63,959 nucleotides of DNA from Prochlorococcus sp. AG-436-J02. GTDB lineage: Bacteria > Cyanobacteriota > Cyanobacteriia > PCC-6307 > Cyanobiaceae. The stretch covers positions 1 to 63,959 of the forward strand of contig QCPI01000004.1 of the NCBI GenBank assembly GCA_003212625.1, in the 5' to 3' direction. Shown here one piece after another: positions 52,206-63,959 of this stretch. Positions within the stretch are counted from its first letter, which is position 1; every line of letters starts with the position of its first letter. Both the position numbers and the translations under genes were made by a program. The notes beneath the pieces are model-generated. The model made no database searches. It was not told the DNA's origin and saw only the letters and a program-made list of their open reading frames with translations.

Positions 52206-53015
52206 ATGTTTTATCTTCTTTCTATACTACTTGGCTCTTCCTTTGGCAGCTTTTTGAATGTATGTAGATATAGGATACCTAGAAATGAATCAATAATATA
52301 CCCTTCAAGTTTTTGTAGAGAATGCTTATCAGAAATAAAATGGTATTTTAATATTCCTGTAATCTCTTGGATTTGGCTTAAAGGTAATTGTTATTACTGT
52401 AAGGCAAATATCAATGTTAGTTATTTATTTATAGAGATTTTAACTCCAATTTTATTTGTATTAAATTTATATTCATTCCCGATTTTTAGTAATTACTTTC
52501 TACTCAATTTAGTAGGAATTGATATTTTGACCTTGTATTTTCTTTTAATTGCTTTTATAGATTTTTCAACTTATAAAATACCTAATATAATTATATTAAC
52601 AGGATCAATTACTGGATTATCTTTTACAATAATCTCTAAACTCATATCTCCATTTGATAATGCTTTGATAGGATTTATATTTAATCTTTTATCAGGCTTA
52701 TTAGGCTTTATACTTCTAGAATCTATTGTATTTCTTGTAGCCCTAATAATAAATAAAAATGCTTTTGGGATGGGAGACAGCAAATATTTATTTCTGATAG
52801 GTTCATGGATTGGCTTTAAGGGCATGGTTATGTCTTTCGTTCTAGCCATATTTATAGGCGGTATTATTACTTTATTGCTTTTATTGATATCTAAAATAAG
52901 GAGAGGTCAGAAAATACCCTTTGGCCCATATTTATCACTAGGAGGATATTTAGTATGTTTTTATGGAGAAGAATTTTGGATTAGTGTAATAAGAAAAATA
53001 TCTCTGTATAGCTAA
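52206..53015 (+). CDS. pilD: Prepilin peptidase/N-methyltransferase (PilD)
   Basis: A 269-residue type IV prepilin peptidase that cleaves the leader after Gly and methylates the new N-terminus. The cytoplasmic methyltransferase loop has paired CxxC motifs (C37, C40, C62, C65). The catalytic aspartates are D119 in AFIDFSTYKIPN and D191 in GMGDSKYL. About eight helices are visible. It processes the prepilins encoded just downstream. Confidence 0.93.
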   Translation: MFYLLSILLGSSFGSFLNVCRYRIPRNESIIYPSSFCRECLSEIKWYFNIPVISWIWLKGNCYYCKANINVSYLFIEILTPILFVLNLYSFPIFSNYFLLNLVGIDILTLYFLLIAFIDFSTYKIPNIIILTGSITGLSFTIISKLISPFDNALIGFIFNLLSGLLGFILLESIVFLVALIINKNAFGMGDSKYLFLIGSWIGFKGMVMSFVLAIFIGGIITLLLLLISKIRRGQKIPFGPYLSLGGYLVCFYGEEFWISVIRKISLYS

Positions 53016-53485: not shown

Positions 53486-54136
53486 GTGAAAAGATTGGAA
53501 AACTATTTAAAATATACTAGAAGATCTAAGATTAAATCTTTTTATTCAGAGGAATATGGTTTTACTATCGTAGAACTTATTATAGTTATTACTATAGTAG
53601 GAATTCTTGCTGCTTTATCTGTTCCTAGTTCATTACAATGGATCTATAAAGAAAAGCAAAATTCTTATGTAAGAGAACTCACAGGTTTTATTGAATTAAT
53701 GAGAAAGGAGGCTAGACGATGGAATGGAAGCTGTTCATTATCTCCAAAGACAACTTCGGTTAATGGTAGAAATATACAACCATTGTTTAATGTTTCTTGT
53801 AAGGGGATGAATAATAATCAAAAATTCAATATATCTAGAAGTATTCCATTAGCAGGTAAACTTATTTTCCAGGAGGTTAGTAGCTCTTTTAATGTAACAC
53901 CTAAAGGACATATATCTTTATCTAATTCAGCTTCAAATAACAGTTCAGTTGTTATGGTAATTGGAGGTAGATACGAAATGCAATCATCCCAATATAGACC
54001 AAAATGCATTCTAATAGAATCTCCATCTGGAATTATTAGAAGTGGTATCTATGCTCGTTATTATTCCACTTCTTCAAGAAGATTAAGTAGTGAGTATAAG
54101 CCCCAATTAAGAACTTCTCAATGTATTACGCGTTAG
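53486..54136 (+). CDS. Type IV minor pilin, GspH/FimT-like
   Basis: A 216-residue prepilin starting at GTG 53486. A 25-residue leader ends in EEYG, cleaved before FTIVELIIVITIVGILAALS, which has the obligatory Glu5. The C-terminal globular domain has a Cys-containing core (NGSCSLSPKT, VSCKGMNNN). In pseudopilin terms it is most like GspH/FimT, the first member of the minor pilin set. It is followed by the major-type pilin after about 175 bases with its own promoter. Confidence 0.8.
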   Translation: MKRLENYLKYTRRSKIKSFYSEEYGFTIVELIIVITIVGILAALSVPSSLQWIYKEKQNSYVRELTGFIELMRKEARRWNGSCSLSPKTTSVNGRNIQPLFNVSCKGMNNNQKFNISRSIPLAGKLIFQEVSSSFNVTPKGHISLSNSASNNSSVVMVIGGRYEMQSSQYRPKCILIESPSGIIRSGIYARYYSTSSRRLSSEYKPQLRTSQCITR

Positions 54137-54263: not shown

Positions 54264-54291
54264 TTGAAATATACAATGTATTGTGTATAGT
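54264..54291 (+). promoter_or_regulatory. Candidate sigma70 promoter of the pilin gene
   Basis: TTGAAA (54264-54269) and TATAGT (54286-54291) are separated by 16 bases, so the transcript would begin near 54298. This gives a ~15-base leader before ATG 54313 and argues against the GTG at 54283, which would lie in the promoter. Confidence 0.55.
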
Positions 54292-54312
54292 ATTTTGAGT
54301 CAGGTTATTGTA

Positions 54313-54870
54313 ATGTCTAAATTTAAAGCCACTCTTACAAGATATCTAAACAGTAGGCTAAAGGAAACTGATTCAGGATTTACGCTTGTTGAGCTAATTG
54401 TTGTAGTTGTAATTATTGGTATTCTTTCTTCTATTGCTATTCCAAGCTTTCAAAATGCTAGTGAAAAAGCCAAGCAAAAAGAAGCTTCTTCCTTGATTGC
54501 TTCATACTTGAAAGCAGCTCAAGCATATTACACGGAAAATAGCATCACTCCTGATAGGAGTAGCCATATTGGTCAATACATCACAGTAACTGGATGTAGA
54601 CAGGGAAACCCTCAATATTGCAAAACCAATAATAATCCTCTTATAAATCATTCCAATGCAAGTAGGAATCAGTGGTATTCACCTAATGGTCACTTCAACA
54701 TAAGAATGGAAAGATCAGGAACTAGGCTAAATTTTCGTGCACTGCCAATATCTCCATCAGGATTAGGCGTTGTGGGTTGTTATGACTCTTTTTCTGGCGC
54801 TACAAGATTAAAAGAAAATGATGCTAATCAAAAAGGTGCTGGAAATGTTAGGAATATAAATTGTAGATAA
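54313..54870 (+). CDS. Type IV pilin (PilA/GspG-like)
   Basis: The start is ATG 54313, giving 185 residues. A 22-residue leader ends in TDSG, cleaved before FTLVELIVVVVIIGILSSIA with Glu5. Then follow the alpha1-N helix and an aligned C-terminal domain (ASEKAKQKEASSLIASYLKA, QAYYTENSITPDRSSHIGQY) with three or four Cys. The leader, helix and size are those of a main filament subunit or GspG-type pilin. A candidate promoter lies directly upstream. Confidence 0.88.
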   Translation: MSKFKATLTRYLNSRLKETDSGFTLVELIVVVVIIGILSSIAIPSFQNASEKAKQKEASSLIASYLKAAQAYYTENSITPDRSSHIGQYITVTGCRQGNPQYCKTNNNPLINHSNASRNQWYSPNGHFNIRMERSGTRLNFRALPISPSGLGVVGCYDSFSGATRLKENDANQKGAGNVRNINCR

Positions 54871-54902: not shown

Positions 54903-57128
54903 ATGAATGATAACGAGTCAAAAGTTATCAGTTTGATTTATAAAAAATTAATTAAGTCTGCATTATCAGATAAAAACAACAGTGAAGGTTTTGTTATACC
55001 TCAAATACTAGTATTAATTATAGGAGTTTCAGTTGCAGTATCTGGATTAATAGCTTCATCTGTTAATCGTCTATCAAGCTCAAGATTAAGTTCTTTAGAG
55101 CTACAATCTAAAAATTCAACTACAAGTGGCGTTAATAATATTAGATCAATATTTAATAATACAAAAGGTGCATATTATTATTTTTGGTTAGCAAAATCGT
55201 GTTCACAAAATACAAATAATAAAGAATGCCCTCAATTTGGGAATGCTTCATCTCTTCTATGGCCAGGACCTTTTATTAAAGGTGCTTTACCTGATTTATC
55301 AAGAATATATTGGTCTGACTCAGGGACAAGTTGGTGTGATGGTCTTAGTTCAAGTAAATGCCCAGGAAGACAAGTAGCACCAACCTGTACTTATTTAGGC
55401 AAAACACAATCATCACCAATTAATTGGAATTATTATAGATCTTCTTTGTCAAATTTATTGAGTGGAAATGATCAGGCGTTTAGTAATCAATTAAGTGGTT
55501 CTAAAAGAGATCATTTTCAAAGCTTCACTCTGAAATCAACTGATTTTGTTGGATCTGAGGATGGAGGAGAGAATTCTATTTTGATAGAAGGTAATACAAA
55601 AGTATCTTCTAATTCAACAATTAAAAGTTCTAGTAATAAACTCAGAGCAAATATTCAAGTAAGTAAAATAGTTTCGGAAGCTGGTTTTGGATATATTAGT
55701 GCAGGTGAAAATCAAAGAGATAGCAATTCATTATTTTTAGGTAATTTAATTGTTTCAGGAAACAAAAAAGGTTCAATTATATGGAGAAAAAACTTATTTA
55801 GACCTACAGATTGTTCAAAAACTAAGAATTTATTAGGTATTAAAAGTTCTTATCAATTACCTGACAATACTAAAGGAGAAGGTGGCCTTTGGGTTCAACC
55901 ACTTTTATTACCGCCACCTCCATCTAAAAAGTCCCAATCCAATCCATGGTCTTTGGGGCAAGTTGTTTGCACTCAAGATAGCTCATGGAAATCATGGACA
56001 AATTGCAGGTTTATGGAAACAACTGGTTGGAATAGCTATAAATCTAAAGATAGAATTGTTACTGTAGATGATTTAATAGTAAGTGGAAAAGATTCTTTTT
56101 TTGGGATAGTAACTTCCAATAAATCACGAGTTACATTAATAGTTAATGGTTCTATTGATCTAAGTAATGGTGGGAGAATTTGTCATAGAGATAATAGTTC
56201 AGCAGCTAGTTGTGGTTCGGGGAAGCCAGAGAATCTAACAATATTATTTCAGCAGCCAGGCAAAAATAGTTTGCCTTCCATAGCAAATGAAAATGGTAAA
56301 CAAGAATTAAAATGTTCTTCTAATGGAGGTATTGATTTAGTTCAAAATAAAAATATTCCTTATAATACTTTCATCCTTAGCAATTCAGGACATTCTGATA
56401 GGAGAGAACCTTTTAGTGGCTTTATATATGCTACTAAAACCACTCTTTCAACCTCTTCAAGTCCAGCTAAGTACTATCAAGTACCAAAAAATGGTTCTAA
56501 ATTACTAGTTAGAACTAGAGGACTATATTCTTATATAAATAATCCAGAAGGTTCATTTCAAGATAGGGCTCCACGTATAATTAGAAGTTGGAATAATAAG
56601 CCTATTCCTTATACGAAAGAAAGCACACTCTATTGGAGTAGTCCTAGATATACTTATCAAATCATTGCAATAGGTAGTAGATCAACATCATCTAATCCAG
56701 GTCAAAATACCATGTTGAATATGGCTTTGATTTGGGATACTTCACGTAATGTTTATTTCCTTGTAGGTCTTAATATTAAGCAAACCGAAGCCCAATTTGT
56801 TAACAGGAATACTAATGGGAGAATCTGGTATGTATATCTTGGTCGAGACCCTTATGGGAGAACAAATAATGGTAGAACATGGCTAAGTTATTATGGTATC
56901 GATTTGAAAGAATCTAAAACTAAAGATCTATATATTAAAGGTGCTGCATGGATGAAGAATATATGTATGGATAAGTATGGAAATGGCAAAGTATATTGGG
57001 ACTTTAAAAAAGATTTCAATAGAGATCTAGTAAAGAGATATGCTAATAACCCAAAATATAATTATGGTGTTCCATATTATCGTGGAAAGTCCATAAAACT
57101 ATGGGATACTCTTAGAGATTTTAATTAA
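54903..57128 (+). CDS. Giant PilX/GspK-like minor pilin, 741 aa
   Basis: A 741-residue protein. The segment NNSEG|FVIPQILVLIIGVSVAVS is a prepilin cleavage site with Gln at mature position 5 (residue 34) instead of Glu. Loss of Glu5 is the hallmark of GspK/PilX, the subunit at the pilus tip, which does not need to neutralise a partner N-terminus. The mature protein has about 690 residues of Ser/Asn/Gly-rich, probably beta-rich extracellular sequence with scattered Cys and no recognised domain. This is several times the length of a typical PilX. Its TAA overlaps the next ATG (TAATG). Confidence 0.75.
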   Translation: MNDNESKVISLIYKKLIKSALSDKNNSEGFVIPQILVLIIGVSVAVSGLIASSVNRLSSSRLSSLELQSKNSTTSGVNNIRSIFNNTKGAYYYFWLAKSCSQNTNNKECPQFGNASSLLWPGPFIKGALPDLSRIYWSDSGTSWCDGLSSSKCPGRQVAPTCTYLGKTQSSPINWNYYRSSLSNLLSGNDQAFSNQLSGSKRDHFQSFTLKSTDFVGSEDGGENSILIEGNTKVSSNSTIKSSSNKLRANIQVSKIVSEAGFGYISAGENQRDSNSLFLGNLIVSGNKKGSIIWRKNLFRPTDCSKTKNLLGIKSSYQLPDNTKGEGGLWVQPLLLPPPPSKKSQSNPWSLGQVVCTQDSSWKSWTNCRFMETTGWNSYKSKDRIVTVDDLIVSGKDSFFGIVTSNKSRVTLIVNGSIDLSNGGRICHRDNSSAASCGSGKPENLTILFQQPGKNSLPSIANENGKQELKCSSNGGIDLVQNKNIPYNTFILSNSGHSDRREPFSGFIYATKTTLSTSSSPAKYYQVPKNGSKLLVRTRGLYSYINNPEGSFQDRAPRIIRSWNNKPIPYTKESTLYWSSPRYTYQIIAIGSRSTSSNPGQNTMLNMALIWDTSRNVYFLVGLNIKQTEAQFVNRNTNGRIWYVYLGRDPYGRTNNGRTWLSYYGIDLKESKTKDLYIKGAAWMKNICMDKYGNGKVYWDFKKDFNRDLVKRYANNPKYNYGVPYYRGKSIKLWDTLRDFN

Positions 57129-57739
57129 TGAAAAAATCTTTATTTGCTATTGATAAATATATTCATAGGTTGTTAATTAGTGAAGAGGGTATTGGCCTAA
57201 GTGAATCAATTGTTAGTATTTTACTTTTAACATTTTTAATTGGTTATTCAATGTATTTTATATCAATGAGGCAATCAATAATGTATAAAGCTAATTTAAC
57301 AACTGCAATTAATGATGAAATAAAAAGGGATATAGAAAAGTTAAAAATAGAATTATGGAATGAACATTATAAGCCTCCTCAAAATCAACAATCGGCTTAT
57401 TATGATACAGTAACGACACAATTACCAAGTAAATATTGTATCAATGTAATTAATACTTACGATAGATTACCTAGCTCAAAAACTAGAGTTTGGATCCCAG
57501 GATCCAATCAAAATTCTTATCGAGGTCAAGTAAGAAATAAAATTTTCAGAGGTTCACCAGTTAAAATCACAAGAAATATTAATAGTCAAAGACCAATGAA
57601 TATTGGCTCAGACTTCACTGTTGATAAAAGTATTATTGAGGTTACATACAATGTTGAGAAAGGTAATGAAAATATTCAATGGACTAGTATAGAATTATCA
57701 AGCGAAGCCCATAGCTGGTGTCCCCCAAAAGGAAACTAA
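57128..57739 (+). CDS. Minor pilin, PilV/GspI-like, 203 aa
   Basis: A 203-residue prepilin-like protein. The leader ends in SEEG (residue 21), followed by IGLSESIVSILLLTFLIGYS, so Glu26 would be the mature Glu5. A signal after G23 is also possible. The C-terminal domain is small, with few Cys (KYCINVINTY, HSWCPPKGN). The position between the K-like and J-like pilins matches PilV/GspI. It is translationally coupled to the 741-residue gene through a shared TAATG. Confidence 0.7.
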   Translation: MKKSLFAIDKYIHRLLISEEGIGLSESIVSILLLTFLIGYSMYFISMRQSIMYKANLTTAINDEIKRDIEKLKIELWNEHYKPPQNQQSAYYDTVTTQLPSKYCINVINTYDRLPSSKTRVWIPGSNQNSYRGQVRNKIFRGSPVKITRNINSQRPMNIGSDFTVDKSIIEVTYNVEKGNENIQWTSIELSSEAHSWCPPKGN

Positions 57740-57741
57740 AA

Positions 57742-59121
57742 ATGTTTAATAATATAAAATTTGTTCCAATGTATAAATTTACAAAAAAATATTTTAGAAA
57801 ACAAATATATTCTAATAGTGGATTCACGATAACTGAGCTATTAGTTTCAAGTACTGTATCTCTTCTTGTTTTAACAGCTGGATTTACTCTTATTAGAATG
57901 ACATTAGATTTGAATAAATCTGATGAAACAGCATTAAAACTAAGTGGGAAGATTGATAATGCATTAGATTTTGTAGTGGATGAGATAAATAGTAGTAAAA
58001 GAGTATTAACAAGTATTAGTCAACAGCCTAATTCATGCAAGAGACCTCCTGGTGAATTTGTTATAGGATTAAGTCTTCCTGATCAAGCTCTTGATGTTTC
58101 TGCTTATAAGAAAACTAATAAACAAAATACACAATTTTTAAGGACTCAATTAAATTGTCCGATTATTTATACCTTAGTTAAGAATAATAATTATTCAGGG
58201 AAAAGAGGTTATTCATATAAATTGATGAGACGAGGCCCTGCAATCAATGAAAAGGGATATTATATACCTACAAAGATTAATGATACTTTGGTCGCAGATA
58301 GAATACGTTATAGTCCTATAGACTCAATGAGTTGTAGTTCTGGTTGGACAAAAAGAACAATTAAGGGAATAATTACTTGTACAGATAAATATAGAAAATC
58401 TGCCGAAATAGGTATCTCCGCAGAAACAAATAAGAATTATGATAAGTATAATTTCCTGTCTAAAACCTCTGCAGGATTTAGTAAGATTCAAGATGACGAA
58501 TTGTTGGGAAATAATAATAATTTAGGTGGCGCCACGGGACAGCCTTGTGCTGGTTGCAAATTATTTGGTACACCAGTAACAAGTCAAAAAATTACTTTTT
58601 TTATAGATATTTCAGGGTCTATGAATTGGGGAAGGATAAGGAATAAGCGACCAATGGATGTAGCGAAGGAAGAATTAATAAAAAATATTCAAAAATTGAA
58701 TAATGGAGTCAAGTTGCAAGTAATTGCTTTTAATCATTATTCAAGAAAACTGTTTAGTAGTCCACAAATTTTAAATAATAAAACTAGATATGAGGCAATA
58801 CGTTGGGTGAGCAGACTCTACGCAGGAGGTGGAACTAATCCATGGGCTGGAGTATCGGAATCCATGAAAAGTCAAGATGTTGGCCAAATGATATTAATGT
58901 CTGATGGCTGGACAAGGACATATGGATATTGCCAACATCTACGTAGGTATATGAAATACTCAGATTGTTTTAAACATTATAATGACAATGTTAGATCGAC
59001 CACTCCAGCAGGTACAGTTCAAATAGATAGTGTATCAATTAAAAATAATTTCTGTGCTGGGAATGGATGGATGGGAGATCTCTCTTCAAAGAACGGAGGA
59101 AATTGTACAGTTGTAAGATAA
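57742..59121 (+). CDS. Minor pilin (PilW/GspJ-like) fused to a von Willebrand factor A domain
   Basis: I choose ATG 57742 (RBS AAAGGAAAC), 459 residues; a GTG at 57718 is inside the previous gene. A 27-residue leader ends in SNSG, followed by FTITELLVSSTVSLLVLTAG with Glu5, as in PilW/GspJ. Residues 50-270 form a Cys-containing pilin-type domain with a Ser/Asn/Gly linker. Residues about 283-459 form a VWA domain with a complete MIDAS: DISGS (D289, S291, S293), T365 in GGGTNPWAG and D388 in MSDGW. This predicts divalent-metal-dependent adhesion at the pilus tip. The stop abuts the pilQ stop with no gap. Confidence 0.85.
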   Translation: MFNNIKFVPMYKFTKKYFRKQIYSNSGFTITELLVSSTVSLLVLTAGFTLIRMTLDLNKSDETALKLSGKIDNALDFVVDEINSSKRVLTSISQQPNSCKRPPGEFVIGLSLPDQALDVSAYKKTNKQNTQFLRTQLNCPIIYTLVKNNNYSGKRGYSYKLMRRGPAINEKGYYIPTKINDTLVADRIRYSPIDSMSCSSGWTKRTIKGIITCTDKYRKSAEIGISAETNKNYDKYNFLSKTSAGFSKIQDDELLGNNNNLGGATGQPCAGCKLFGTPVTSQKITFFIDISGSMNWGRIRNKRPMDVAKEELIKNIQKLNNGVKLQVIAFNHYSRKLFSSPQILNNKTRYEAIRWVSRLYAGGGTNPWAGVSESMKSQDVGQMILMSDGWTRTYGYCQHLRRYMKYSDCFKHYNDNVRSTTPAGTVQIDSVSIKNNFCAGNGWMGDLSSKNGGNCTVVR

Positions 59122-61344
59122 TTAATCTTGGTTAATCATTTTCTTTATTTCTGGTGATTTAGGAATATATCCGGGATTATTCATAGTTATATCTTCGTAG
59201 GAGTCTTTTACTATTTGTGGTGTTACTAGTATTACCAACTCTCGTTGCTCTTTGGTTGAACTTGAATTTCTAAATAATCTACCTAATAAAGGAATGTCTC
59301 CTAAAATTGGGAATTTAGTGACAGTTTCCATATCTGTACTATTTAAAACTCCAGTAAGAATTAATGTGTTGCCATCTCTTATGCGAATTGAACCACTGTC
59401 AAGCCTTCTTGTCGCAAGCAGGGTGATTTCCCCACAACCTTGTAAAGTTCTAGAGCCTCCAGATACAGATACTGCTGGTGAGATGGAGAATGTAACGTAA
59501 CCGTTATCATCAATCCTTAAAACTCTTGCTCCAAAAGTTAAGCCAGATATTCCATATTCAAAAGTTGGTACGGTTGATTCTTCTTCTACTTCACAATTAA
59601 CTGGAACTTGACTTCCTACAATTATAAATGCCTCATTCCCGTATGAACGTCCAATAGTACCTGCAGTTAAAGCAGTAGTTACATCTTCAAAAGTGACGGT
59701 ATCTCCTCCTGTCTTTCCAGGGTATTCATTAAGGATAAGTGTTGGACTAGCTAATATTTTTGTATTTTCAGAAGCAATAGATGCTTGCAAGAAATCAACT
59801 ATTGATTGGTTGTCGTATGACCTTTTAACAGGATTATCAGTTGGTGTATTAGCAACTAAAAAATCGTCTTCATTTGGTGGTAAAAGATTACCAAATGCTC
59901 CAAGAAGTTTGCCACCAGAATTAACAATAAATTGATTCCCTGTTCTGAAAGCCCAGCTATTATTAAAAGTATTTCCATCACTTATATTGATATCTAAAAT
60001 TTTGACAGTCAAAGCAACCTGTCTTTGTCTCAAATCTAATTGCTTGATATAGTTCTCTGCAACATCTACTAATTGAGGCGATCCAAGCAATGTAATAGTC
60101 TGGAGTCGGTCGTCGGTCGTAACCATCAAACCAAGTAAAGGTCCAGATGACGCTCCATAAACTTGAATTTTTGTTTCAGTGCTATTAGTTGTAGTAGATG
60201 AGGTCTCTGAACCTGCAACACGATCAGATTCAGATTGCCCGCTACTAACCGCTGTCGTAATAGTGGAAGTGGTACTAACTTTTGCACCTAAATTAGCAAG
60301 GTAAGAGGCAGCGGCATTTGCTGTGGTTTGATTTAATCTATACACCCTAGAAATTCTATTTAAGAAAATTCTTTCTCTTACGCTTGGTCCAACATAGACA
60401 ATATTATTTTGTATGGTTGCTTGAAGACCACTAGCCATTAATAATGTATTAAAGGCGACATCATAAGGTTGATCTTTGATTGACAAAGTTATATATCTTT
60501 GAGCATCTGAGGTCTTTTCTTCAGATGATTCTAACTCTTCAGTTCTAGAACTTGATATACCTTGATTAAATGTCTGCGATTCTTGAGCACTGGAAAAAGT
60601 AGGAGTTGATGATGATGATTGATCTTGGAATGTAGGGTCATCTTGTACATACACAAATCCATAGTCTGTTTGAGATATTAAATATTCAATAGCTTCTCTA
60701 GCTGGGGTATTTTTGAAGACTAAAGACACATTTGGACCTTTAATATTAATAAGATTTGGATTATTAATAAAAGAAGTACCAACTGCTATGTCTCCTAAGG
60801 GTGGAGCTTTTGGTATGTTTTTATTATTAGGATCTGATATCTTCTTTATTTCATTTACTTGGAATGGATTATTTAACTTTTGATTAGCTTTCGAAAGTTC
60901 AAGGTCAGGGAAATCAATAAATACTTTATTATTTTTAAAAATTATATTGGGATTATTAATTTTAGTATTAAGGGTTGGAATAATAGAAAGAATCAATTCA
61001 CCATTTGAACCTTTAATGCTAATGGTTTTTAAACCAGCTTCTGGAATAGATAGACTTTGAGATGTTATTGGTTTTGTAGTATTTTTAAGAAATAATCGAA
61101 CCTCAACAAACTCATCAGTAATGTGATTTTTAAAAGTAGTATCAGAGGGGATCTCAGATAAAACAATTTTCATATTAGGTGAATCACCTTCCAAGCTTAG
61201 TAAAACATCATTATTTTCTGAATTTTGGTCGATAATTACATTTCTTAAATCGTTTGATGCAACATAATTGAATGATGAATTAAAAAACTCCGAAGATACT
61301 ATCGCAAAAGGTATAAGAAGAATAGAGTAAAATTTATTAATCAT
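59122..61344 (-). CDS. pilQ: Type IV pilus secretin PilQ (GspD family)
   Basis: A 740-residue outer-membrane secretin. After a signal peptide there is an AMIN-type beta domain, then STN/N0-like segments (VSLVFKNTPAREAIEYLISQ; DQPYDVAFNTLLMASGLQAT), an N1 segment (RVYRLNQTTANAAASYLANL) and the secretin barrel from about residue 430. The signature ends RIRDGNTLILTGVLNSTDME, TKFPILGDIPLLGRLFRNSS and LVILVTPQIV. It forms the exit pore for the pilus. It is the last gene of the minus-strand pilM-N-O-Q unit. Confidence 0.92.
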   Translation of the reverse strand: MINKFYSILLIPFAIVSSEFFNSSFNYVASNDLRNVIIDQNSENNDVLLSLEGDSPNMKIVLSEIPSDTTFKNHITDEFVEVRLFLKNTTKPITSQSLSIPEAGLKTISIKGSNGELILSIIPTLNTKINNPNIIFKNNKVFIDFPDLELSKANQKLNNPFQVNEIKKISDPNNKNIPKAPPLGDIAVGTSFINNPNLINIKGPNVSLVFKNTPAREAIEYLISQTDYGFVYVQDDPTFQDQSSSSTPTFSSAQESQTFNQGISSSRTEELESSEEKTSDAQRYITLSIKDQPYDVAFNTLLMASGLQATIQNNIVYVGPSVRERIFLNRISRVYRLNQTTANAAASYLANLGAKVSTTSTITTAVSSGQSESDRVAGSETSSTTTNSTETKIQVYGASSGPLLGLMVTTDDRLQTITLLGSPQLVDVAENYIKQLDLRQRQVALTVKILDINISDGNTFNNSWAFRTGNQFIVNSGGKLLGAFGNLLPPNEDDFLVANTPTDNPVKRSYDNQSIVDFLQASIASENTKILASPTLILNEYPGKTGGDTVTFEDVTTALTAGTIGRSYGNEAFIIVGSQVPVNCEVEEESTVPTFEYGISGLTFGARVLRIDDNGYVTFSISPAVSVSGGSRTLQGCGEITLLATRRLDSGSIRIRDGNTLILTGVLNSTDMETVTKFPILGDIPLLGRLFRNSSSTKEQRELVILVTPQIVKDSYEDITMNNPGYIPKSPEIKKMINQD

Positions 61345-61643: not shown

Positions 61644-62354
61644 CTAATTGATTGATTTAGGGATATTACTGAAAACATCAAGGCCAGAATTTATGGATGG
61701 ATTGAATTTATAAAGTTGAATAGAATTATTGGCTGGATAATCATCATCTATGAATTCACTAATATCTGAATCAAAATTATTTTCATTATCAAAATCCATA
61801 TCATCCATTGGGAGATCAAAGTCCTGATTCTCAAAATCACTAAAACCATTATTTGAAAATTCATCATCAGTCCTAGATGAACAGGAATTTAATTCATCTT
61901 TTTGGATAGGAGAAAATTCAGAAATTAAAACAACTGATCTTTTAGCGGAATCATATAGAAGTTCGCTAAGTAAGAATAAATCCTTAGATTTAGCAATTAA
62001 ATTCTTAAATTTTGGTAATAATATATTTAATTCTTCTCTAATTTTATTACGATTATCTAGTTGCTCTTGAATAATAGGTAACTCGTTCTTCTCATTAAAA
62101 TAAAGATCAGATAACTTCTGCTTTTCACGAAAAGATTTAAAAGAAGGAATTAATGCTAAAGAGCTAAAGACTGCTGCAGTTAAAATTCCAATTGTAGGAT
62201 AGAAGGCTTTAGATTTTGAAAGATTCTTTATGTCTTCGAGTTTAATAGACTTAAGATCTTCTATTTTTACAGTCTTTGCTTTCTCAAGCATTTCAGCAAC
62301 ATCAATTTTCTTTAATTCATCAATAAATTGTAGTAAGCTAATATTTTTTTTCAT
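61644..62354 (-). CDS. pilO: Type IV pilus assembly protein PilO, interrupted by a stop codon
   Basis: A 236-residue protein as translated. Residues 1-50 form a charged cytoplasmic part, 51-70 (FYPTIGILTAAVFSSLALIP) a single membrane helix, and 75-125 a coiled coil (EKQKLSDLYFNEKNELPIIQ). The start of the alpha/beta domain follows (KSKDLFLLSELLYDSAKRSV). Residues 152-206 hold a very acidic insertion (DDEF, PMDDMDFDNENNFDSD). The reading stops at TAG after IPKSIN, and the remaining domain is encoded in frame in 61422-61643. The N-terminal half alone probably cannot complete the fold that pairs with PilN. Confidence 0.8.
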   Translation of the reverse strand: MKKNISLLQFIDELKKIDVAEMLEKAKTVKIEDLKSIKLEDIKNLSKSKAFYPTIGILTAAVFSSLALIPSFKSFREKQKLSDLYFNEKNELPIIQEQLDNRNKIREELNILLPKFKNLIAKSKDLFLLSELLYDSAKRSVVLISEFSPIQKDELNSCSSRTDDEFSNNGFSDFENQDFDLPMDDMDFDNENNFDSDISEFIDDDYPANNSIQLYKFNPSINSGLDVFSNIPKSIN

Positions 62355-62358
62355 GTTT

Positions 62359-63123
62359 CTATCTTATAAAGAGATTTAATATGTATGAATATTTATTTAG
62401 CTTAGATAGAGCTCCATAATTAAATGCATTTTTATTTAATTCTATTATAGTTTGTAAGGAAGGGTTTGTTAGTTTTCCTGTTATTTCAACAACTACCCCA
62501 GCTTTGTATTGGTTACTCTCAACAGATTCATCTGATAACTTTGATTGATCAATTAACCTTACTAGTTTCAATGATTCTGATTTAATTAACTTATTATCAA
62601 ATAATAAATTAAGTAATTTATTTATAGAAATTATATTATTTCCAATAGCATTTATCTTGAATCCATGATTATCAATTGTATAATCAGATAGTTGAACACC
62701 TTGTGGAATTAAGCTTTGCAGATAATATCCAAATAAATAATCTGGAGCTGAAATAGCATATAGACTGCCATACTTTATAAATGAATTAAAGTCAGATTCA
62801 AGACTTCGATTAATTTCACTTAATTGATTAATATTATCCTCATAAGAATAATGAAACATTTCAAATCTTCTAATGTTTATAATAGGTACTATTGAAACAA
62901 TTTGTATTAGAAGTGTTAAAGCTAATATGCTAAAGGATGGAATAAAAAGTATTTTATTACTCTTAGCAAATGTAATTAAATATTTAAATTTTGATATATA
63001 GCTTGTGAATTTACTTGTACTGCTTAAATCTTTGTTTTTGCTAGACAGTGGGATTATAGTATTTTTTTTGTAAGACCAAAAATTTATTGTCTTATAGTTT
63101 CTAGCAAAGTTATATTTTATCAT
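62359..63123 (-). CDS. pilN: Type IV pilus assembly protein PilN
   Basis: A 254-residue protein. A basic cytoplasmic N-terminus (about 50 residues, longer than in typical PilN) is followed by one membrane helix (ILFIPSFSILALTLLIQIVS) and a periplasmic domain with coiled coil (YEDNINQLSEINRSLESDFN). The C-terminal ferredoxin-like segment includes VEITGKLTNPSLQTIIELNK. It binds PilM through its N-terminus and pairs with PilO. It overlaps pilM by four bases (ATGA). Confidence 0.8.
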   Translation of the reverse strand: MIKYNFARNYKTINFWSYKKNTIIPLSSKNKDLSSTSKFTSYISKFKYLITFAKSNKILFIPSFSILALTLLIQIVSIVPIINIRRFEMFHYSYEDNINQLSEINRSLESDFNSFIKYGSLYAISAPDYLFGYYLQSLIPQGVQLSDYTIDNHGFKINAIGNNIISINKLLNLLFDNKLIKSESLKLVRLIDQSKLSDESVESNQYKAGVVVEITGKLTNPSLQTIIELNKNAFNYGALSKLNKYSYILNLFIR

Positions 63124-63959
63124 TTAACTAAATCCTCTATTAAAAGGGAAAAAGAATCCAAAACGGATTTATTTTTTTCCTGATCCTCTAATTCTATATT
63201 ATTTATAATCTTAGAACTTAAATATTCTCTACTATTGTATATTTCAAAACCATAAATGGAAGAACGATCTTTATCAAATTTTAATTCATCAAGTCCGATA
63301 CCGGATATATAAATTTTTTCTGGCAGTATATCATTATCATCTTTTGCTATTTTTTCTACTGCATTCTTTAAGCGCAGAAAAAGCTGTTGCTGTACTTTTT
63401 CATCATTTGATTTATATAAGGATACTCCATAAGGTAATTTATATGACTTAAGTCCACAATTTTGCTTTTGGATATAGATTGTTATTGACGAAACTTCTAT
63501 GTCACATAATACACTATATATTTGATTTGTAGATTTATTTGAAATCTGGTCAATAATATTTATTGAAGCATTTGATAATGCTACTACTGGCTTATCAAGT
63601 AAAACTAAGATACTCATCCATGATTCAATTATATTTTTTTCTGCATAGATAACTATATGATATGAACTTAGTTTGTCTCCTGAAACTCTTTGATACTGAA
63701 TAGATGTATCATCAGGAAGGAATGGACTATTTGATAGAATGATTGGATCTTTTTCGGAAAAGACAACCAATTGATTGTCACTGAAAGTTTTAGCAGTAAA
63801 GAAAGAAGAACTAAGTAGAAGTATAATAGGTGGATTTTTTAGACCGAATACTTCAATCACATCTTCTATGATGTTTTTTACTTCTTCAATATTTTCAACC
63901 TTGCTATCTCCTATTAACTTAGTATCTATTTCGATCTTAATATGTTTTTCTATTATAGT
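63120..63959 (-). CDS. pilM: Type IV pilus assembly protein PilM (5' end cut by window edge)
   Basis: The frame remains open past GTG 63860 to the window edge, so only the C-terminal 279 residues are visible and the true start lies outside. What is seen looks like the C-terminal half of an actin-like PilM: VLCDIEVSSITIYIQKQNCG (phosphate-2-like), KLPYGVSLY and IYISGIGLDELK (adenosine-loop-like). PilM sits on the cytoplasmic side and binds the N-terminal tail of PilN. Identification rests mainly on position before pilN-pilO-pilQ and the fold-like pattern. The stop overlaps pilN by four bases. Confidence 0.7.
   Translation of the reverse strand, partial: TIIEKHIKIEIDTKLIGDSKVENIEEVKNIIEDVIEVFGLKNPPIILLLSSSFFTAKTFSDNQLVVFSEKDPIILSNSPFLPDDTSIQYQRVSGDKLSSYHIVIYAEKNIIESWMSILVLLDKPVVALSNASINIIDQISNKSTNQIYSVLCDIEVSSITIYIQKQNCGLKSYKLPYGVSLYKSNDEKVQQQLFLRLKNAVEKIAKDDNDILPEKIYISGIGLDELKFDKDRSSIYGFEIYNSREYLSSKIINNIELEDQEKNKSVLDSFSLLIEDLVK

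Follow-up and report, generated by a model that had tools for sequence, protein, structure and literature searches.

The locus described here raises the question of what a type IV prepilin that ends in a von Willebrand A (VWA) domain does in a marine picocyanobacterium, and whether it takes over the work of the pilus protein PilY1. The window we analysed is a stretch of 63,959 nucleotides (contig QCPI01000004.1, positions 1 to 63,959) of Prochlorococcus sp. AG-436-J02, whose genome is 54% complete.

A prepilin and a VWA domain in one polypeptide

The gene at 57742–59121 (plus strand) is a single open frame of 459 a.a. that joins a prepilin and a VWA domain in one polypeptide, pilin module first, which is the modular layout of the pilin PilB of Streptococcus sanguinis. 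A preliminary description of this DNA had reported a class III prepilin signal with Glu5 at its N-terminus, and we found the same: the signal is SG/FTITE, with the cleavage site between G27 and F28 and E32 as the mature Glu5, and it has a short leader, a glycine at position −1 and a hydrophobic stretch at 35–57. Seven out of nine relatives match the Pfam family N_methyl. For the C-terminal part, residues 284–390 match the Pfam families VWA_2 (E 5e-5), VWA_3 (E 8e-5) and VWA (E 6e-4), each slightly under the curated cut-off; VWA_2 is also matched by six out of nine relatives, and NCBIfam TIGR03788 is matched in its VWA part with an E-value of 1.8e-11. Every MIDAS element (DxSxS...T...D) is where it had been reported (D289, S291, S293, T365 and D388), and these residues are invariant across the closest six sequences. 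The Pfam scan of the protein gave VWA only, the beta-propeller of PilY1/PilC (PF05567) being absent, and a search of the PDB by sequence gave no useful match.

We built an AlphaFold2 model from a nine-sequence alignment. Its mean pLDDT is 63.7: the VWA region is mostly at 73–88, the pilin module is uneven, and residues 1–62 and some linkers are below 50. The predicted pilin module has helices at 39–57 and 59–84 (partly within the low-confidence residues 1–62), followed by strands between 105 and 246. The VWA module is modelled as alternating strands and helices in the expected order, with three MIDAS residues on the canonical loops: D289 closes the first strand, T365 lies in a loop that precedes a helix, and D388 directly follows the strand 382–387. 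VIA-align superposes residues ∼265–459 on solved VWA domains with Z up to 18.7 and an rmsd of 2.1 over 149 residues, so that the C-terminal module is predicted to have the Rossmann-like alpha/beta VWA fold, in agreement with the preliminary description. A chance or frameshift origin of the gene is ruled out by the single open frame, the homologues and the low dN/dS, and a chance VWA-like motif by the predicted fold, the alignment to solved VWA domains and purifying selection.

The top Foldseek match for the whole chain, and the best match over both modules, is S. sanguinis PilB (PDB 7ba2; E 6e-10 over 489 columns). PilB is likewise a class III prepilin with a C-terminal VWA domain and an intact MIDAS (PMC8179133, PMC9934059), and is of similar length (454 versus 459 a.a.). 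The rmsd of this match is 24, therefore the modules differ in relative orientation and the similarity is module by module; the identity is ∼12% over the structural alignment. The two proteins differ in other ways: PilB belongs to a monoderm host, where PilABC replaces H-I-J-K, whereas the picocyanobacterial protein belongs to a diderm host whose H-I-J-K set is putatively complete; and, unlike PilB, a branch of the picocyanobacterial VWA pilins lacks MIDAS. The MIDAS of PilB is flanked by two arms.

The minor-pilin operon and the identity of the N-terminal module

The VWA pilin is encoded by the last gene of a minor-pilin run on the plus strand (H, pilA-like, K, I and J+VWA), with a prepilin peptidase gene nearby and a secretin gene, pilQ, that is convergent with it and directly abuts it. 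The features are:

52206–53015, plus strand: prepilin peptidase PilD (Pfam A24_N_bact 5e-30, Peptidase_A24 8e-12)
53486–54136, plus strand: minor prepilin, H/FimU-like, 216 a.a. (Pfam N_methyl; NCBIfam TIGR01708 gspH, PRK10506)
54283–54870, plus strand: PilA-type (major-pilin-like) prepilin, 195 a.a. (Pfam N_methyl; NCBIfam GspG/PilA profiles)
54903–57128, plus strand: large prepilin, putatively K/PilX-like, 741 a.a., SEG/FVIPQ, without Glu5 (hydrophobic N-terminus and place in the operon)
57128–57739, plus strand: minor prepilin, putatively I/PilV-like, 203 a.a., EEG/IGLSE with Glu5 (N-terminus and place)
57742–59121, plus strand: bimodular VWA prepilin (pilin module ∼28–262; VWA module ∼280–459; MIDAS D289/S291/S293/T365/D388)
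59122–61344, minus strand: secretin PilQ (Pfam Secretin 1.7e-27, STN, Secretin_N)
61644–62354, minus strand: probable pilO (by position only)
62359–63123, minus strand: probable pilN (weak Pfam match to PilN, E 0.0025)
63120–63959 (window edge), minus strand: probable pilM (by position only)

A small ORF sits between pilD (52206) and the H-like prepilin gene (53486). The K and I genes overlap by one base, and the I gene stops 2 bases ahead of the ATG of the VWA pilin. The K and I assignments are putative, being drawn from N-termini and gene place rather than from profile matches (the I-like protein has no match of its own in Pfam or NCBIfam); the I-like gene is kept beside the VWA pilin in relatives. 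The K-like prepilin is far bigger than the usual K/PilX subunits, and its position is conserved; no Pfam family matches the additional part, and the structure prediction for the protein (pLDDT 38) gave no usable fold.

The PilB ATPase is encoded on another contig of the same genome (C30). Beside it, at C30:1288–2085, T2SSE (PilT-like) has two partial matches, one per strand (L131 and L132); together they resemble a broken pilT or an inversion chimera from DNA amplification. In named Prochlorococcus relatives, one of them the cultured strain MIT 9302, the gene order is identical and pilB lies beyond it, in some cases with pilT as well; in both Prochlorococcus subgroups described below, pilQ lies directly against the VWA-pilin gene. 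The operons of picocyanobacteria with larger genomes hold these genes too, arranged differently (pilA, pilA-like, K-like, I, H, J-VWA), and in several genomes the set occurs twice, sometimes in tandem. A phmmer search in this larger-genome clade did not find a secretin beside the VWA pilin in most loci; two loci have the pilQ adjacency.

The name PilW/GspJ, given to the subunit in the preliminary description, is based on the operon position and weak profile matches: TIGR01711 (gspJ) is matched by three out of 16 family members with E about 0.04. The best named profile for the N-terminus is that of HpsC, a pseudopilin of filamentous cyanobacteria (NF038304), matched by 10 out of 16 members with E down to 9e-6; however, the VWA pilin scores 20.7 bits against an equivalog cut-off of 200, and only the first ∼80 residues are covered. 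We regard the N-terminal module as probably a J/PilW-type pilin.

Distribution of the fusion and decay of the metal site

A scan of genome contigs with the VWA pilin as a single sequence found nothing; a profile from a four-row alignment gave matches. Matches were found in three out of 41 genomes of the genus (two besides AG-436-J02 itself), all of them full-length. Among 400 genomes of the picocyanobacterial family, 83 were matched at E 1e-3 by a profile from the Prochlorococcus alignment (this count includes pilin-only matches) and 50 at E 1e-10 by a profile from the alignment of the larger-genome versions. The VWA pilins occur in a large number of picocyanobacterial genera, a genome often having two of them, and the larger-genome clade is probably marine Synechococcus. 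In a phylum-wide sample of 292 cyanobacterial genomes, all matches to the VWA part are inside the picocyanobacterial family; other families match through the pilin N-terminus only, in frames of mostly 210–480 a.a. (five examples were read). This first-look profile search scores no more than five candidates in each genome, which makes the case for a family-only distribution strong but short of exhaustive. As for origins from outside, a phage source was rejected: neither the single protein nor the alignment had a relative in viral contigs. One VWA pilin of Prochlorococcus type, nearly identical to L046, is on a contig labelled as a Crocinitomicaceae MAG (L044, PBXW01000005.1), which is almost certainly misbinned.

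In a profile–profile comparison the Prochlorococcus versions can be aligned with the larger-genome versions over their full length (probability 99.8, E 3e-30), and the two have a pilin-body motif in common (Y-L ... Y-L-R-GP ... G-Y). The simplest reading of these alignments is one fusion event before the two clades split. A second, separate origin is a lesser possibility, because long branches join the two clades in our phylogeny of the VWA pilins, which is a quick tree.

Conservation of MIDAS was judged on 79 distinct VWA-bearing frames, gathered by homology and thus not a random sample. The complete D-S-S-T-D set is present in 61 of them, including all the nearest relatives, which bears out the expectation that orthologues would keep it; but the percentages differ sharply among groups: it is complete in 14 out of 14 members of the subgroup of AG-436-J02, in 45 out of 46 of the larger-genome clade and in only two out of 17 of a second Prochlorococcus subgroup (proteins of ∼495 a.a.). 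In the latter the decay tracks the tree: L009 and L016 are intact, L019 has T changed to S, and the third serine and the second aspartate are then lost, in L023 and L024 and afterwards in eleven more (MIDAS-lost members in all: L010, L012–L015, L017, L018 and L020–L025). Another member of this subgroup, L028, is cut short, and the pair L033 and L034 lost MIDAS separately.

The dN/dS of the VWA module is 0.03–0.09 in three near-relative pairs of the subgroup of AG-436-J02, about 0.10–0.17 in the MIDAS-less subgroup and 0.39, the highest seen, between two copies in MIT 9302. By these ratios, the VWA domain is still maintained in the MIDAS-less branch, if somewhat more loosely. Therefore metal-dependent adhesion cannot be the universal role of these proteins, and the MIDAS-less branch argues for an extra, metal-independent one. 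The preliminary description of a metal-dependent tip adhesin in a marine picocyanobacterium thus has to be narrowed: the host is a marine Prochlorococcus, but the role would not extend to the members without MIDAS.

Proposed function and its alternatives

The explanation that we favour, with a probability of roughly 0.6, is that of a type IV minor pilin with two modules, in which the VWA domain, through the MIDAS metal, gives the pilus its adhesive or contact-sensing part. The N-terminal module would be built into the H-I-J-K priming complex and the VWA module displayed at the tip, where MIDAS is predicted to bind a divalent metal and, thereby, a ligand; the protein would stand in for PilY1, which is undetected in these genomes. 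In its favour, the VWA domain of S. sanguinis PilB, which works with a minor-pilin set of its own, binds metal and host proteins (PMC8179133), and PilB has been modelled at the pilus tip (PMC9934059). Points against it are the weak GspJ/PilW identity, the uneven pLDDT of the pilin module, the subgroup without MIDAS, the incomplete genome, the small number of full-length orthologues in the genus, and the finding that the MIDAS mutant of PilB still binds fibronectin and fibrinogen (PMC8179133).

In diderm pili, according to reviews, a separate PilC/PilY1 serves as tip effector (PMC10191384). PilY1/PilC of diderm type IVa pili resembles the VWA pilin in that some PilY1 proteins have a VWA domain at the pilus tip, together with the minor-pilin complex, and by this analogy the two likely do the same job. 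It differs in that it is not a pilin but a protein of its own, which carries a beta-propeller (PF05567) at its C-terminus, a domain that the VWA pilin lacks. The suggestion that a PilY1-type function is fused onto PilW/GspJ is therefore kept as an analogy: a VWA domain with a competent MIDAS is indeed fused to a pilin, but the beta-propeller is missing and the GspJ identity is weak by sequence. A separate pilY1 was looked for with PF05567, which had no match in the 41 genus genomes and the 292 phylum genomes, nor in any control genome, so that PilY1 counts here as not detected rather than absent; VWA_2 matches only the VWA-pilin gene in the 54% of the AG-436-J02 genome that is available. A fuller scenario, which we put forward tentatively and rate at somewhat below even odds, is that picocyanobacteria have no PilY1 and carry the VWA adhesin as the integral J subunit of a tip complex made of four pilins (the PilABC strategy of monoderms set inside a diderm H-I-J-K complex), and that one Prochlorococcus lineage has made this tip metal-independent.

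The purifying selection on the VWA domain in the MIDAS-less branch, and the abutting pilQ in both Prochlorococcus subgroups, would also suit a mainly structural subunit for assembly or priming, in which a VWA cap controls how the pilus is assembled or passes through PilQ, with adhesion as a secondary function; S. sanguinis deleted for pilB is no longer piliated (PMC8179133). We consider this unlikely, as most members keep the full metal site, which a pure scaffold would not need, and as S. sanguinis with a PilB that does not bind metal is still piliated, with impaired twitching (PMC8179133).

Adhesion and contact sensing also have to be weighed against roles that differ in what the VWA domain binds. 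One is that of a receptor of a competence-type pilus, which would capture DNA, polysaccharide or particles and not serve as a cell-surface adhesin: the minor pilins PilA3, PilW, RntA and RntB of S. elongatus are required for transformation (PMC12288463), and larger-genome picocyanobacteria hold several minor-pilin sets together. Yet protein ligands are usual for VWA/MIDAS domains, and pilA genes lie beside the VWA pilin in the larger-genome operon, while the abundant PilA1 pilus of Synechococcus WH7803 (possibly from another operon) is linked to suspension and escape from grazing (PMC7994388); we regard the receptor role as distinctly improbable. More doubtful still, and in our judgement very improbable, is a pilus that binds a specific partner (a phage, a grazer, a heterotroph or another picocyanobacterium), with the VWA domain diversifying under biotic pressure. 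The two copies per genome in several strains, the orphan C-terminal fragments, the module-swapped paralogue (see below) and the low frequency of orthologues within the genus do look like a variable surface trait, but the near pairs have a low dN/dS, the MIT 9302 duplicate being the one exception, and no homologue was found in viral contigs.

Type IV pili help marine picocyanobacteria to stay suspended and to escape grazers (PMC7994388), and the chemistry of their pilus tips appears undescribed. The WH7803 PilA1 cluster in that paper likewise has several prepilin genes, with some pilA1 neighbours marked 'unknown function', and the paper makes no mention of a VWA domain or PilY. One of the 15 module types most often found on pilins is VWA (PMC8179133), and VWA-bearing pilins as such are already published (PilB); the fusion, present here as first described, is therefore neither new in kind nor peculiar to one organism, given the many picocyanobacterial genera that have it. 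Our literature search, which had most subscription journals outside its scope, returned no paper on a VWA pilin in picocyanobacteria and none that links 'modular pilin' to cyanobacteria. The apparent novelty is that, in a dominant ocean lineage, a VWA pilin occurs family-wide and inside the core minor-pilin operon, together with a natural group that has lost MIDAS; the MIDAS-intact and MIDAS-lost branches offer a natural comparison for the role of MIDAS in a pilus tip. The pilus tip of these open-ocean cells is probably sticky in a metal-dependent way, with an adhesion domain of the metal-binding kind also found in human integrins, and the conserved VWA pilin, if it does bind metal, is a candidate for what the pilus touches other things with (particles, grazers or other cells).

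Several paralogues and fragments were found. In AG-436-J02 a paralogue on contig C17 (L002:1165–2262, minus strand) is 40% identical in the pilin body (residues 24–262) and has a Cys-rich C-terminus of ∼90 a.a. in place of the VWA domain; it is located near a PilA-type pilin, and it suggests that C-terminal modules are exchangeable on one pilin scaffold. An orphan C-terminal fragment of 57 a.a. (51% identity to residues 404–459) is encoded on contig C11 of the same genome (C11:25217–25390; L003:1495–1668, minus strand), and a tblastn search did not find its upstream remainder. Short C-terminal pieces that resemble this fragment are also present in G268, G274 and G314; these orphan pieces may be pseudogene remnants or donor cassettes. 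In MIT 9302 (contig NZ_JNAM01000010.1) two VWA pilins, L042 and L045, are encoded ∼12 kb apart, one in the minor-pilin operon and the other alone beyond pilB-pilT-pilC.
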